A stretch of DNA of 64,000 bases from Athripsodes cinereus (lineage: Eukaryota; Arthropoda; Insecta; Trichoptera; Leptoceridae), in contig OX388315.1 of the NCBI GenBank assembly GCA_947579605.1, forward strand, positions 186,001 to 250,000, in the 5' to 3' direction. Each line of letters begins with the position of its first letter. Within the stretch, counting starts at the first letter, position 1. Below the pieces are notes generated by a model that was not told the origin of the DNA, did no database searches, and saw nothing but the letters and a program-made list of their open reading frames with translations. Positions 3,340 through 49,799 of this stretch are shown here, piece after piece. The position numbers and the translations under genes are program-made.

Positions 3340-4364
3340 ATGAAACATCAGAAGGTTTCTGTGGACGTGTGGAGTATGGTGAAGACTATGGTAGGATACC
3401 TGGCCGTGGTCGTGTTGGGAGGAGTACTACTGAGGCTCATGATAGCTGTGGTAATGTTGCCCAGGAGGTTCGCCAGAGAAAGAGAAAACGTGGACAGAGC
3501 TATTAAAAACCTTCAAGTAAGTCTTTGGAATATTTACTATTATTTTTTTTACTAAGTTTAACGCGCAGATGACAAAACCTATCGGAATATCACAATTGGA
3601 GAATATGTTAACGAAATTCAATTACATATGCAATATATGTTACATTACATATGCAGTATATATGATGTAATGCCATGCAAAAAGTGTTCAGAATCACTCT
3701 AAATAAAGTGGGCTGGTTTTTGGTCTGAGCCAAAAAGAGTGGAAAATGGTGAAAAGGGGTGAAAAATAGATGCACATGATTAAATTTCGTTTATGAATCA
3801 TTTGAAACTGTTTCAAGTATTTTACGATTTTATTTTATTCACTGTGTCGGTGTTAAGGTAGTAGAATTCCATATCGAAAAAATAAAACAGGTGTTTTATT
3901 CTACTAAAGATTATATTTTGTGAGAGAGACGTCTTTCGTCTTATGAGGACATTGTCAATCAAGAGATTGACAATGTCCTCATAAGACGAAAGACGTCTCT
4001 CTCACAAAATATAATTTTTAGTAGAATAAAACACCTGTTTTATTTTTTCGATTTTATTTTACTTTGAAATACAAAACAACTAGTTCATTATTTGTTTACT
4101 TAATTGTACGTTTACATGGTGCCCTTACTGAATTTTACTTAATTTATTCGAGAAATCAATACATCAATAATATTTTATAAAATACTTCATTAATTTCAGG
4201 AACGATACCCAGAATGTTTCAAGGATGCCGCGGAAGGAATTGAGAGTGAAAAAAATAAAAACGAAGGACGCGAAACAGAAGAGGATGAACAGGAGGAGTT
4301 GGAGGAAGCGGAACAAATAGAGCAAGTAGAAATAAAAGGAGACCTTGAAAAGAAAGCTGATTGA
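3340..4364 (+). CDS. Two-exon gene for a 113-residue single-pass membrane microprotein
   Basis: Exon 1 is 3340-3516 (59 codons), followed by a GTAAGT donor at 3517. Exon 2 is 4200-4364 after a TTAATTTCAG acceptor ending at 4199. The junction falls between codons and the frame stays open to TGA at 4362. The product has a short polar N-terminus, one strong transmembrane segment (about residues 16-40), a basic patch PRRFARER right after it, and a very acidic, coiled-coil-like tail (about residues 69-113, rich in E and K). The start has A at -3. The coding parts are more GC-rich than the surroundings. The intron carries a complete foldback element (3838-4048). An AATAAA lies near 4552. I do not recognise the family. 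The layout suggests a membrane-anchored adaptor or small regulatory membrane protein, but that is inference. Confidence 0.72.
3838..4048 (-). mobile_element. Hammerhead-bearing foldback element, copy 1
   Basis: This 211-bp element has a 13-bp target duplication CGATTTTATTTTA (3825-3837 and 4049-4061). It consists of a tail (TTCACTGTGTCGG... GTAGTAGAATTCCAT, 3838-3870) and a near-perfect palindrome (about 3873-4052) whose arms meet at AAGA (3961-3964). The strand given puts the conserved ...CACCGACACAGTGAA end last. The same tail sits beside copies at 23115 and 49023. Each arm contains a hammerhead-like core. No protein is encoded. The variable 12-13 bp duplication fits a retroelement better than a DNA transposon. 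It lies in the intron of the microprotein gene. Confidence 0.75.
3963..4003 (+). ncRNA. Hammerhead-ribozyme-like motif (variant U3/A8)
   Basis: Read 5' to 3' the motif has stem I GAGA (3963-3966), core UUGACAA (3967-3973), a bulged U, stem II GUC (3975-3977) and GAC (3985-3987), GAAA (3988-3991), a palindromic stem III GACGUC closed by U (3998), C17 (3999), and stem I UCUC (4000-4003) pairing with GAGA. This matches the hammerhead order CUGANGA / GAAA / UH except that position 3 is U and position 8 is A. In full-length hammerheads positions 3 and 8 pair, so U-A could replace C-G. Stem III has no loop, as in dimer-acting hammerheads of Penelope-like elements. The opposite arm has the same motif on the minus strand. 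Activity is unproven, and the fold competes with the long hairpin. Confidence 0.5.
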
Positions 4365-7774: not shown

Positions 7775-7810
7775 CTGATGATGAGAGCGGAAGCTCTTGA
7801 AAGCCGGCTC
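7775..7810 (+). ncRNA. Hammerhead-ribozyme core of Penelope-like type
   Basis: The core reads CUGAUGA (7775-7781), a bulged U, stem II GAGAGC-GGAA-GCUCUU, GAAA (7799-7802), a stem III formed by the palindrome GCCGGC closed by A-U, and C17 at 7810. All conserved hammerhead core residues are present, including C3 and G8. Stem I is weak (C-G and G-C next to the core: ...GC before CUGAUGA and GC after C7810). Zero-loop stem III is the form reported for hammerheads in Penelope-like retroelements. The following GATATACTAAAAAGGTGTTT (about 7832-7851) may be part of the same element. No reverse transcriptase frame is seen nearby. Confidence 0.6.
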
Positions 7811-7849
7811 GCGACCAATGAAGTCACACTGGATATACTAAAAAGGTGT

Positions 7850-21430: not shown

Positions 21431-23158
21431 CTATGTAGCAGCGCCGGACCTACCATAGGTTCAAATGGTTCGGCCCACCAGGGCGCCGAAAGTATAAGGC
21501 GGCACATAGATTAACTCTGGATTAAGTTTTAATCAGAGATTTTATAAATAAATAATTTAATAAGTACTTCCGCATTGATTGCTATACTTCCGCTTGCATA
21601 GAAAGTTACACATAACACAAAATGTATCGGTTTTATAATATCAACTATTTTTGAAATTCCCGCGAAAAGTAGCACGCTCTTATACCTCATCACTGTCGAC
21701 TCATATAATACAATTTGATTTCTTCATTTAAGTTCAAAGGATTTTGAATGTTACGTACTCTAACTTTTCCATACATAATAAGGGTCAAAATCTCGTGTAT
21801 CTCGGTTTTTTCAATGTCTCATACAACCAAGTATGCGCCCCGCTCAGCACTAATACAACTCTAAGCGCTTCTACATAGATTCTCACTAATACATACAAGA
21901 TATGCAACCAACCAACTGATCCAATAGCGGTTACATATACAACCACAACGCGCTCTTTGCGCCCCTACATATATTCTCACTAATACATACAAGGCGCCCT
22001 TTAAAATTCAAACAACAACCAGAAATGAAACTATTACCTAGCGGAAACAATGTGTGCTTTGGTTGATTATAACACAACGTAGCTTAAAACACTAGGTGGT
22101 TGTGCTCCAAACAACATGGATTATCTTCGTTTTACAGAAGATGTACTTCGTATGACTTCGTGCACCCGAATGACATTCGCTTCTGGTTTAATCGTTGCAA
22201 TAGTGACATAAATGTTATAATATGCGTAGATTATAATAGTACCTACTACGATAATTATTTAAAATATTTTTAAAAATATTGCAACCAAATATTATTATGG
22301 GCATATATTATTACAATACTAATTAAAATATTGAAAGCCTAATGTAATATACATATTTTCATACCTACATAACGATTATATTATTATATTATGTTTTTCG
22401 ACGATTTTGTTTTTGTTTGCATAAACTCTTTTGCAGTTGACCGCCGTTATGAATGCTGTTCTATTATATGATGACAAATGACCGTTGTCCGTTGCGTTTA
22501 AGTAGGTACCTATTTACTTAATGAACCGCACGTATTAATTTTTTGGCGTAAAAAATAATTAAATATTTATTATTATCGTATGATATTGCTAAATATCGTT
22601 ATTAATTATCGTATTAGATTTATTTGGCTTATGAAACTTTATGTATTATCTTCTTTCTTCTATTCTGTTTTTTCGTGTGTTTACTCAAAGTGTATACTTG
22701 AGATTTTGTGAGTGTTTGTAGTTTTCTTCAGTTATTTTAACTTTTATATAGGATATAATAGTTAATTTTACTTCCACACATGCATACATCCCATGTAAGT
22801 ATTGAAATAGTAGTATAATTATTGTATTTAGGTAAATTAATAGTTATGTTTATCTATGTATCTATCCCATGACGTCCTCTGGGGCTACGTTTTCTTATTT
22901 AGCTATAGGTCATAGACATACTTTGCTATAGGTAGATAAATATTTTTCATCTACCAATAGCTACACATCATGTTTGTACTAAAAACACTCGTATTTGAGT
23001 AAAAATTTTCAATATCAAGATACAAAAATATGTTACGCCTAGGTATATTAATAAACATGGTGGTAGGTCGATATAAAATTTTTTATAAGGTAGGTAGATA
23101 CTAATTACATTTTGAAATAATAAAACAAATGTTTTATTCTACTAATGGTTTATTATGT

Positions 23159-23197
23159 GAGAGAGACGTCTTTCGTCTGGTGAGGACATTGTCAATC
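23159..23197 (-). ncRNA. Hammerhead-like motif of copy 2, minus strand
   Basis: The opposite arm read on the minus strand has UUGACAA (23195-23189), stem II GUC/GAC, GAAA (complement of 23171-23174), GACGUC, U and C17. Position 3 is U and position 8 is A, so the 3-8 pair could form. Confidence 0.4.
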
Positions 23198-23236
23198 GAC
23201 TGACAATGTCCTCATCAGACGAAAGACGTCTCTCTC
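23198..23236 (+). ncRNA. Hammerhead-like motif of copy 2, plus strand
   Basis: Core CUGACAA (23200-23206), bulged U, stem II GUC (23208-23210) and GAC (23218-23220), GAAA (23221-23224), palindromic GACGUC, U and C17 (23231-23232), then UCUC. Stem I has only two good pairs (GA with UC). Here position 3 is C and position 8 is A, a mismatch. Confidence 0.4.
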
Positions 23237-23532
23237 ACATAATAAACCATTAGTAGAATAAAACATTTGTTTTATTATTTCGATATGGAATTCTACTACC
23301 TAAACACCGACACAGTGAATAATTACATTTTGTAAAAGTAGGCAAATAAGAAACGTAACTTCATATTTTTTGCGTATTATCACATTTTGTTATGATACGA
23401 AAATATTTTTTTGGAAAAGAGGTGGGGGAGGGGGGGGGGGCGCAGTATCTCTATTTGAACCAAGCGCAAAATGCGGTTGATCCGGCACTGCTATGTAGGC
23501 TTTTCTGAGGTTTACTAAACTACATAATATTT

Positions 23533-38943: not shown

Positions 38944-39110
38944 TCGTAACAAGCGTTTCGTTCTACTATAGATTAAACAACATAAGATAGATGAATCGAT
39001 TGATAATGACCTAAGAAGTCGAAAGACGTCTTTCTCGCGTTGTTAAATCTATAATAGAACAAAATGCTTGTTTCAGTTTACCCAATTGTGGAATTCTACT
39101 ACTTGTAATT
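38944..39110 (+). mobile_element. Hammerhead-bearing foldback element, copy 3
   Basis: Arms ACAAGCGTTTCGTTCTACTA... (38948-38980) and ...TATAATAGAACAAAATGCTT (39039-39071) are inverted copies with several differences. The tail TGTGGAATTCTACTACTTG (39088-39106) matches the family. No target duplication is visible and the CACCGACACA end is missing. It is older than copies 1, 2 and 4. Unlike them it carries the ribozyme-like core on one strand only. Confidence 0.65.
38948..39071 (+). ncRNA. Hammerhead-like motif with long stem I
   Basis: Core UUGAUAA (39000-39006), bulged U, stem II GAC (39008-39010) and GUC (39018-39020), GAAA (39021-39024), palindromic GACGUC, U (39031) and U17 (39032). The outer arms pair over about 33 positions and would extend stem I beyond an internal loop, with AACAAC against GUUGUU. 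Compared with copy 1, stem II is GAC/GUC instead of GUC/GAC, a compensated change. Position 3 is U and position 8 is A. Confidence 0.5.
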
Positions 39111-39222
39111 TACCTTACCACCAGCTATATAATTATAATGAGACATAATACAATCCTACATACCTAATTATAATTCTAATGGTTGTACATTCACAGAGTG
39201 AAAATTCATGATTACATATATC

Positions 39223-39384
39223 AATATTTCTAAACACAGTTAATTTTCACTAATTTTTTTTTAAAGAACTCGAACTTTTCGCCAAAAGCTCAGTTTGACA
39301 TTAAGTGCTCTTGAAAATGTCAAACTGAGCTATTGACGAAAGCTCTCAGTTTCTTTAAAAAAATTAACTGTCTCTAGAAATATT
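39223..39384. mobile_element. Foldback element, diverged relative (copy 5)
   Basis: The arms run from AATATTTCTAAACACAGTTA to the inverted TAACTGTCTCTAGAAATATT, with inner arms GCTCAGTTTGACATT and AATGTCAAACTGAGC around a short loop. No family tail or target duplication is clear. Its centre carries the same ribozyme-like layout as copies 1-4 with different bases. Confidence 0.6.
39311..39345 (+). ncRNA. Hammerhead-like motif of copy 5
   Basis: Core UUGAAAA (39311-39317), bulged U, five-pair stem II GUCAA (39319-39323) with UUGAC (39333-39337), GAAA (39338-39341), two-pair stem III AG/CU, C17 at 39345. Position 3 is U and position 8 is A, as in copies 1, 3 and 4. Stem I next to the core does not pair well, so this copy is probably inactive. 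Confidence 0.35.
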
Positions 39385-39583
39385 TATATTTGTATACCTA
39401 CTTATATTTCATACGACACCACGTTTTTCAAAAAATAATTGAATGCTGATTACTAATTGCAATATTATTGCAAGTAATTATAATGTGTTTATTATATTGT
39501 ACACATATATTTTTGTGATTTCTCAATATTTTCTAAATATTGGCACGGAGCTAACAGCTTGCATGTTTATTATATGCTGCTGG

Positions 39584-49022: not shown

Positions 49023-49237
49023 TAATGCAATTTGAAACAAGTGTTCCTTTCTACTATTGTTTTTTAATTCGCAGAGAGACGTCTTTCGACTTATGAGGTC
49101 ATTATCAAAGATTGATAATGACCTCATAAGTCGAAAGACGTCTCTCTGCGAATTAAAAAACAATAGTAGAAAGGAACACTTGTTTCAAATTGCATTATTA
49201 TGGAATTCTACTACGTGTGCACCGACACAATTAATAA
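49023..49237 (+). mobile_element. Hammerhead-bearing foldback element, copy 4
   Basis: This 215-bp element is flanked by an exact 12-bp AACAAAGATAAA (49011-49022 and 49238-49249) and interrupts the Tigger transposase remnant. The palindrome (about 49021-49199) has arms unlike those of copies 1 and 2 except in the ribozyme-like core. The tail TGGAATTCTACTAC...CACCGACACAATTAAT (49201-49235) matches the family. Confidence 0.8.
49109..49147 (+). ncRNA. Hammerhead-like motif of copy 4
   Basis: Stem I AGA (49109-49111), core UUGAUAA (49112-49118), bulged U, stem II GAC (49120-49122) and GUC (49130-49132), GAAA (49133-49136), palindromic GACGUC, U, C17 (49144), stem I UCU. Position 3 is U and position 8 is A. 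A degraded twin lies on the minus strand of the left arm. Confidence 0.5.
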
Positions 49238-49799
49238 AACAAAGATAAAATTAAGAGATGGATGTTTCAAGAGAGTGTTTACGAAAGGTCTACGTTTACG
49301 GTTAGTTTTCTAGTTAAAAATGGTTAATTATTTGTCATAAATTCATATTTTTATTTAGGTACGTTTTTTTCCTAATCTAAATTGTATTACAAGTTGTTAC
49401 ACTCTTTTATAAGTCATTTTATTTGAAAAAACGTTATTAAAAAAATCATGGAATACTTATTCTTTGGAACGCATTATCGTATTTTACATTGATTTCTTTG
49501 GAAAAAAAGGTTTCGCATACCTAACGAGTGTTTCGCATAAGGAGTAAGAGTCAGGAACGAATAAAACTCGTTATTTTTATTTTATTTTATTTGAATAAAA
49601 TATACCACTGCCAGCTTGACAGTTGTGAAACCTAATTGCTGGACAGTGGACAACATAATATAACAATCATAAACAAATATGAATCTAAGAATCTAAAATA
49701 ACAACCATACGAATATAACCCATTAATAAAAAAAAAACTTACAATGAGAGGTTCCACTGTATATCTTATTTCTAAAAAAAAATATCAAGTGACAAAACA

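Follow-up and report, generated by a model that had tools for sequence, protein, structure and literature searches.

The window analysed here, a stretch of 64,000 nucleotides of Athripsodes cinereus DNA, contains four small foldbacks, at 3838-4048, 23115-23319, 38944-39110 and 49023-49237, each located where a reading of the sequence alone (the sequence-only reading) had placed it, with the palindrome and the common tail that had been claimed for it (reduced in copy 3, where it is decayed). In a common orientation, the layout runs from a target-site duplication (TSD) through an inverted leader arm of at most 87 nt to a short centre, and from there through a direct arm and a 36-nt tail, which ends at GTGAA or nearby, to the second TSD (Table 1). 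The inverted arms are complementary over 88 nt at 99% in copy 1, over 95 nt at 95% in copy 2 and over 88 nt at 100% in copy 4; in copy 3 much of the left arm is missing, including its centre. The tail is restricted to exactly one side in each of the four copies. TSDs of 13, 13 and 12 nt surround copies 1, 2 and 4, respectively, and none was detected at the flanks of copy 3. The hammerhead-ordered core proposed for each copy, YTGAYAA-T-stem II-GAAA-GACGTC-TH, was found in all four. The cut sites predicted with it stand for 23232, 39032 and 49144 on the plus strand, while copy 1 lies in reverse orientation, so that its sense core, on the side of the tail, is on the minus strand at 3958-3926 and not at 3967-3999.

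Table 1. Parts of the four foldback copies in the window, and hammerheads of sibling leaders elsewhere in the host genome (PLE, Penelope-like element).
Feature	Position	Strand	Remark
Copy 1, left TSD CGATTTTATTTTA	3825..3837	.	identical to 4049-4061
Copy 1, tail = PLE ORF start (MEFYYLNTDTV)	3838..3873	-	matches ORF start in L091
Copy 1, tailed arm = PLE 5' leader, sense	3874..3960	-	
Copy 1, hammerhead-type core, sense strand	3926..3958	-	predicted cut after 3926; motif-scan minus-strand match 60043
Copy 1, inverted tailless arm	3965..4048	+	mirror core 3967-3999
Copy 1, right TSD	4049..4061	.	
Copy 2, left TSD TAATTACATTTTG	23102..23114	.	
Copy 2, inverted tailless arm	23115..23197	-	
Copy 2, tailed arm	23198..23283	+	near-identical to leader of 811-aa PLE ORF
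Copy 2, hammerhead-type core	23200..23232	+	predicted cut after 23232; C3-A8 here, U3-A8 in usual sequence
Copy 2, tail (MEFYYLNTDTV)	23284..23319	+	
Copy 2, right TSD	23320..23332	.	
Copy 3, inverted-arm remnant	38944..38997	-	core-bearing centre gone
Copy 3, tailed arm	38998..39087	+	
Copy 3, hammerhead-type core	39000..39032	+	stem II GAC/GTC; predicted cut after 39032
Copy 3, decayed tail	39088..39110	+	without ATG; broken frame
Copy 4, left TSD AACAAAGATAAA	49011..49022	.	
Copy 4, inverted tailless arm	49023..49108	-	
Copy 4, tailed arm, diverged source	49112..49198	+	
Copy 4, hammerhead-type core	49112..49144	+	stem II GAC/GTC; predicted cut after 49144
Copy 4, tail (MEFYYVCTDTIN)	49199..49237	+	
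Copy 4, right TSD	49238..49249	.	
L081 hammerhead			GCAC-CUGACGA-U-GCG...CGC-GAAA-CCGG-UC-GUGC
L084 hammerhead			CUGAAGA-U-GGG...CCC-GAAA-ACGU-UU
L088 hammerhead			UUGAGAA-U-GCCC...GGGC-GAAA-ACGU-UA
L090 hammerhead			CUGAUGA-U-GUUA...UAAC-GAAA-GAUC-UU

Source Element

A search of the host genome for the GIY-YIG domain returned 86 matches, including 832-aa frames at a spacing of 2,657 bp. This unit (L081) is a tandem PLE in a pLTR-ORF-pLTR arrangement, with RT and GIY-YIG both above cut-off, and its ORF begins MKCYKVNADTIN, which resembles the foldback tail read onward as MEFYYLNTDTVN. The N-terminus of L081 was searched against the genome (150 candidates scored), and eight ORF starts were then fetched. 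At locus L091, an arm and tail of the copy-2 type continue directly into an open frame, MEFYYLNTDTVNKLKVA..., which together with the adjacent L096 makes up an 811-aa ORF. This ORF scores 40.8 bits for RVT_1 (cut-off 29.6) and 20.8 bits for GIY-YIG, just under the curated cut-off of 22.6; it is 38% identical over 789 aa to the sibling tandem PLE L081, and its closest database relative is a protein of the butterfly Euphydryas editha (43% identity). The leader of L091 is 5'-shortened. The coding source was identified from this one ORF, which matches the copy-2-type arm subgroup, and the leader is common to the foldbacks and the ORF-bearing loci L091, L094 and L095. Among the matches listed in the N-terminal search, the foldback family is represented by one head-to-head pair and by single ORFs.

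The tail corresponds to codons 1-11 of the PLE ORF (MEFYYLNTDTV) and two further bases, 36 nt at one end only. The earlier remark that the copies encode no protein overlooked this ORF start, and its mention of Penelope-like elements was well founded, the arm being the PLE 5' leader. The small palindromes are short PLE insertions and not novel jumping DNA. Elsewhere in the genome, at G000 C20:19965264-19966475 and C23:10645841-10646609, PLE N-terminal pieces at a spacing of 173 bp precede PLE frames, as if a leader and ORF start had been arrayed in tandem.

Genome-Wide Copies

The host genome (716 Mb, 160 contigs) was searched with the tail pattern GGAATTCTACTACN{1,12}CACCGACACAG, which gave 3,259 matches, 1,681 and 1,578 on the two strands, and 0 in the control. 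The view that the foldbacks are copies of something mobile is borne out. Two samples were drawn, a tail-selected one comprising the first 50 of the 100 tail matches listed, all from one contig, and a similarity-selected one comprising the 30 best DNA matches to copy 2. An exact TSD of 11-13 nt flanks 30 of 30 loci in the latter (L001-L004 have a common flank). In the tail-selected sample, a TSD of at least 9 nt was found at 33 of 50 loci, as against 165 of 2,450 mismatched locus pairs (L051-L053 share a flank), and none was found at 17 of the 50; where found, its length varied from 9 to 14 nt. As copy 2 and three others (L001-L004) have the same flank and TSD, this foldback sits within a larger repeated segment. 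Among 12 arm clusters found independently of the tail, the tail lay on one side in seven, on both sides in none and on neither side in five. Scans of a viral collection for the tail and for the core returned 0 matches each. Direct duplicates of the arm were seen in only one of 54 copies, L061, where 36-nt pieces of the outer inverted-arm part, without the core, are repeated in tandem just upstream of the tail-side arm.

The sequence-only reading had taken the palindromes for a self-standing ribozyme family, that is, a non-autonomous palindromic element, retrozyme-like or a foldback transposon, which would replicate as a palindrome. Thousands of copies would suit such an element, as would one identical sequence in 11 of the 30 best matches to copy 2 (a sample selected for likeness to copy 2), but its arm is a coding PLE's leader, one of its ends is a tail and not an inverted repeat, the fillers at the centre differ, TSD length varies, and ATGAATGATGTT, a 12-nt marker of the upstream promoter region in L094, was present in 0 of 54 copies. 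We regard it as scarcely probable; the copies look rather like 5'-leader insertion products of a coding PLE, with a palindrome made by integration. Solo foldbacks lack the promoter region and were probably inactive from the moment they inserted.

Foldback transposons and palindromic MITEs have long inverted arms and no complete gene. The foldbacks share these traits but differ in their non-inverted tail at one end, their variable TSD and their retrotransposon-leader arms, on which grounds a foldback DNA transposon, a MITE or a Helitron was ruled out; terminal inverted repeats at both ends and a TSD of fixed length, as in DNA transposons, were not found. Metazoan non-LTR retrozymes are described as small, non-coding elements with a type I hammerhead and TSDs that are possibly mobilised by PLEs, and as tandem repeats giving circular RNA (PMC7229834). 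The foldbacks are inverted single leaders, and in place of the direct tandem repeats bounded by hammerheads that mark a retrozyme, inverted arms were found in 41 of 50 loci.

Arm Ends and a Proposed Insertion Mechanism

Arm lengths were measured in the 50 tail-selected loci, an arm of at least 84 nt being counted as full. Both arms could be aligned at 41 loci, and nine were without an aligned left arm. The left arm is full in 24 and the right arm in 16 of these tail-selected loci, with both full in 11, the left only in 13 and the right only in four. Examples of unequal copies are L079, L039 and L047, each flanked by a TSD of 12-13 nt, in which a left arm of 86-87 nt (87 nt in L079) faces a right arm of 10, 19 and 23 nt, respectively. 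The 11 copies with two full arms have nine different centre fillers, two copies being without filler. The outer ends are nearly constant, with TGAA directly after CACCGACACAG in 41 of 50 tails and the end of the tailless arm at most 4 nt from the base preceding the ATG in 26 of 41 alignments. Left and right arm lengths are weakly correlated (Spearman 0.37, p 0.018, n=41), in part because of six copies in which both arms stop at 27-28 nt, where by eye they have a GTTTTATT stretch in common; the independence of the arms is thus incomplete. Later deletions in unstable palindromes could mimic unequal arms.

The arms pile up at one inner limit, GATTGAC. The reference arms start at GATTGAC, so that the measured lengths are capped by construction, and the limit was rechecked by adding 60 nt of upstream sequence from L094 to the reference and aligning it to 54 copies; 3 of 85 alignments passed GATTGAC by more than 5 nt, and those beyond it comprise two gapped alignments of 76-77% in L058 and one of 9 nt in L064. 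In the ORF-bearing locus L094, the upstream leader reads ...TATATATA...AAAATCAGATTGAC, and the predicted TATA box TATATATA lies 33 nt upstream of the A in the predicted TCAG initiator TCAGATTGAC, which is a usual spacing. Together with the inner limit, this spacing puts the centre of the foldbacks at the predicted 5' end of the mRNA, the start of which is predicted at or next to AGATTGAC. In L095, an ORF-bearing insertion, the tailless arm extends past the limit into the TATA region, which means that longer transcripts are used as templates as well.

With a probability of about 0.86, each foldback is a PLE insertion templated by the 5' end of the PLE mRNA. What can be seen of this in the copies are the leader arm with its core, the ORF-start tail, the near-constant outer ends and the TSDs, as well as unequal inner ends and a common inner limit beside the predicted TATA/initiator start. 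The PLE protein would cut the target with a stagger of ~12 nt, and the 3' ends of both cut strands would prime reverse transcription (RT) on the leader RNA. Priming at a distal site, GTGAA, would give the tailed arm, and priming at a proximal site, just before the ATG, the tailless arm; each cDNA would proceed toward the 5' end of the RNA or drop off early, and the two may then be joined via microhomology or a short filler. The near-constant outer ends, the largely independent inner ends and the differing fillers suggest that the palindrome was most likely made anew from two cDNAs.

This agrees with published biochemistry, in which the purified PLE protein of Anolis cuts and extends both strands in vitro and begins RT at two internal sites that delimit the "tail" (PMC11167929). 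By analogy, the one-sided tail seen here matches these two sites. In that assay, however, the two strands did not differ in RT start site (PMC11167929). In folds of single-arm RNA, at arm positions ~54-105, GUAGUAGAAU pairs with AUUCUACUAC in three of five sequences, forming a hairpin that encloses the proximal RT start site just ahead of the AC-rich tail end and recalls the AC-rich stem loop found where RT begins in PAc (PMC11167929).

An earlier hypothesis ascribes PLE inverted repeats to self-priming on an antisense template, an idea prompted by palindromes at inverted PLE junctions and accompanied by a call for further experiments (PMC3846280). In such a snap-back, cDNA or antisense RNA would fold at its inner end and copy itself, giving a head-to-head inverted repeat. 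The arms are near-perfect within copies, which favours this route, and the six copies with equal arms of 27-28 nt could be accounted for in the same way. A left arm of 86-87 nt, however, is not copyable from the right arms of L079, L039 and L047, barring later trimming of the latter, and 13 of the 41 two-armed copies combine a full left arm with a shorter right arm. Snap-back also predicts template-derived loops, whereas the fillers vary between copies, and the outer ends occupy two preferred sites, with TSDs. Self-priming is therefore considered very unlikely, and two-strand priming on the leader RNA is preferred.

The foldback source and the GIY-YIG PLEs (Anolis PAc, the Adineta vaga Pen families and D. 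virilis Penelope) both have an ORF with RT and GIY-YIG, and the foldbacks resemble these elements in their head-to-head inverted pLTRs, one-sided tail of 30-40 bp, short TSDs and, for PAc, a hammerhead in the pLTR (PMC11167929; PMC3846280). Unlike them, the products sampled here are ~210-bp inserts made up solely of two leader cDNAs; the tail pattern matches 3,259 times in this single genome, and the centre lies at the predicted mRNA start.

The Hammerhead-Type Core

In arm coordinates, the core reads GA-UUGAYAA-U-(GUC...GAC or GAC...GUC)-GAAA-GACGUC-UH. A motif scan of the window, in which a palindromic stem III was required, found eight sites, seven of them within the four foldbacks, against 0.075 per order-1 Markov sequence (40 sequences), a contrast that is partly circular for the foldbacks as the pattern was written after the motif had been seen. 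Where a CUGANGA box would be expected the core has UUGAYAA, in which U3-A8 could pair like C3-G8; the core variant pointed out earlier thus lies in U3/A8, which is also present in L088 and L038. Neither GAAA nor the U of UH varies in 13 of 13 aligned arms, most of which have GUC/GAC or GAC/GUC as stem II, and stem I has 0-5 bp depending on the copy, with 3 bp (AGA/UCU, by eye) in the ORF-linked leader. The core starts 85 nt before the ATG, at +4 of the predicted mRNA. In an alignment of five arms (three hand-typed subgroup representatives from fetched copies, together with window copies 3 and 4), columns are invariant at 31 of 38 positions in the core, 6 of 20 in the spacer, 14 of 31 in the RT-site hairpin and 18 of 36 in the tail. 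A core no better conserved than the arms had been named beforehand, together with an absence of transcript ends at the predicted sites, as the outcome that would speak against the family, and these five arms gave the opposite. The left arm of copy-2-type elements contains CTGATGAG, which was considered as a canonical hammerhead box and rejected, because it is loop II in reverse complement, reads CTTATGAG in window copies 1 and 4, and is without an adjacent GAAA.

Ten PLE ORF starts fetched from the host genome (L081, L084, L086-L093) were scanned for hammerheads with a palindromic stem III, or with another stem III where stem I had at least 4 bp. The scan found one in four of the ten (Table 1), L091 has a 5'-shortened one, and five were without a hammerhead (L092 being partly masked). 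Counted from the ATG, the four begin 92-112 nt upstream; counted from the A in TCAGT or TTAGT, they begin 7-23 nt downstream. In an alignment of six non-foldback hammerheads, both sides change in eight of nine pairs, with values equalled in just 0-2 of 500 shuffles; at positions 3-8, four of the sequences have C-G, while L088 and its relative L038 have U-A. This alignment was drawn from eight considered, with L090 and window 7775 excluded for stem III length or spacing and L038 added, and it is also without L079, the second L041 core, L065 and L067. In the leaders of L087 and L092, which belong to PLEs of the MSRNCYIVN type, GAAA is followed by the palindrome UCGCGA without a recognisable CUGANGA box (by eye); these are perhaps further decayed hammerheads.

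Other hammerhead-bearing repeats form inverted pairs in the fetched flanks of L038, L041 and L065, and by eye in L067; these were chance sightings and not a sample, and the same test found no inverted pair around L079 or window 7775. The pair at L038 has a one-sided tail by eye. L065 carries a perfect 226-bp palindrome (1849-2074) with the core CUGAUGA-U-GGAGAC...GUCUCC-GAAU-ACUAGU-AC, in which GAAU...AC for GAAA...UH amounts to a U-A pair at 15.1-16.1. Outside the foldbacks, the window has a PLE-type minimal hammerhead at 7775-7814 on the plus strand, CUGAUGA-U-GAGAGC...GCUCUU-GAAA-GCCGGC-UC, and L067 has a core similar to it within its inverted pair, with a non-palindromic stem III, UCCGGU. 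At window 39212-39394, ~100 bp downstream of copy 3, lies a decayed inverted repeat that contains a hammerhead-like core (39303-39354) and may be a foldback derived from a different PLE family.

A covariance model (R1) was built from the six other hammerheads, with the foldbacks left out. In the window it listed copy 3 at only 9.4 bits (E 8.8) and left copies 1, 2 and 4 unlisted, and across 22 further loci it found no foldback core; it gave 16 bits to the hammerhead at window 7775 and 18.4 bits (E 0.023) to the core at 39303-39354. An Rfam scan of the window returned nothing at the gathering threshold, and scans of copy 4 and two sibling leaders also returned no hammerhead; since Rfam misses clear PLE hammerheads as well (L081, L084), this null is uninformative. 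The minimum-energy fold of a single arm lacked the hammerhead core in the five sequences folded, and within the family, among 13 arms chosen by hand from the 29 listed, covariation was limited to a single pair (26 of 500 shuffles).

These results leave some room for a reading in which the resemblance to a hammerhead is coincidental and the core is kept for some other purpose, for instance to bind a protein or to act as a promoter close to where transcription starts. The missing strict C3/G8, the 3-bp stem I of the ORF-linked leader, the failure of R1 and Rfam on the foldback cores, the single-arm fold and the lone covarying pair all speak for it. It is nevertheless thought unlikely: the order of elements, the extra U after the first box and the palindromic stem III are those of the four sibling-leader hammerheads, the place in the leader is similar (85 nt from core to ATG, against 92-112 nt), and U3-A8 replaces C3-G8 as a pair, as it does in L088/L038. 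Rfam passes over the L081 and L084 hammerheads too, and R1 gives the clear hammerheads of L090 and window 7775 just 16 bits. The shared order and pairing, with U3-A8 as in L088, indicate a PLE hammerhead architecture, and from its sequence the core is a degenerate PLE-type minimal hammerhead, weak in stem I and palindromic in stem III, whose self-cleavage is putative.

The minimal type I hammerheads of PLEs reportedly work as dimers, a finding credited to Cervera and de la Pena in 2014 and to Lunse et al. in 2017. The foldback core is like them in its core order, palindromic stem III and pLTR location (PMC6466107; PMC7761336), and unlike them in U3-A8 for C3-G8, a stem I of ~3 bp and a start at +4 of the predicted mRNA.

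Cleavage and Insertion

Insertion of RNA cleaved at the predicted site (after GACGUCUC) would leave arms ending 52 nt from the proximal RT site. Only 1 of 91 arms ends within 1 nt of the predicted cut, against 40 of 91 that reach the inner limit, suggesting that the inserted RNA was mostly uncleaved. With the ribozyme intact in most inserted RNA, cleavage does not usually appear to precede insertion. The RNA inserted by PAc in vitro was likewise reported to be mostly uncleaved (PMC11167929).

A more speculative proposal, which we hold to be rather improbable, is that the PLE hammerhead is kept mainly as a pairing device and not as scissors, its palindromic stem III joining two mRNA 5' ends. 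GACGUC, or other palindromes in sibling leaders, would form a double hammerhead from two mRNAs, and two template RNAs would be delivered to one PLE protein dimer, one per cut strand; the foldbacks would then be the footprint of the paired, uncleaved complex. If true, the proposal would account for the missing internal stem III of PLE hammerheads and their tolerance of U3-A8, and would explain why the core is the best-conserved part of the leader when so few arms end at the cut, and why insertions occur as head-to-head pairs.

Implications

Among the open-licence papers listed, none was found to describe leader-only inverted PLE insertions in large numbers, which is weak evidence of absence. 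In repeat annotation, such foldbacks could be mistaken for DNA transposons of the foldback type or for a novel ribozyme element. Genome data left open the choice between self-priming and dual-strand priming in PLEs (PMC3846280), a question that in vitro work has taken up for a single protein (PMC11167929). The insertion mechanism proposed here is well supported by the anatomy of the copies. Many short, simple insertions in one genome offer a natural readout of PLE integration, in which the outer ends fall at two preferred sites where RT starts, while the inner ends are unequal and have their limit at the predicted start of the mRNA. Their ends also allow a test of whether hammerhead cleavage comes before insertion, the RNA here appearing mostly uncleaved.
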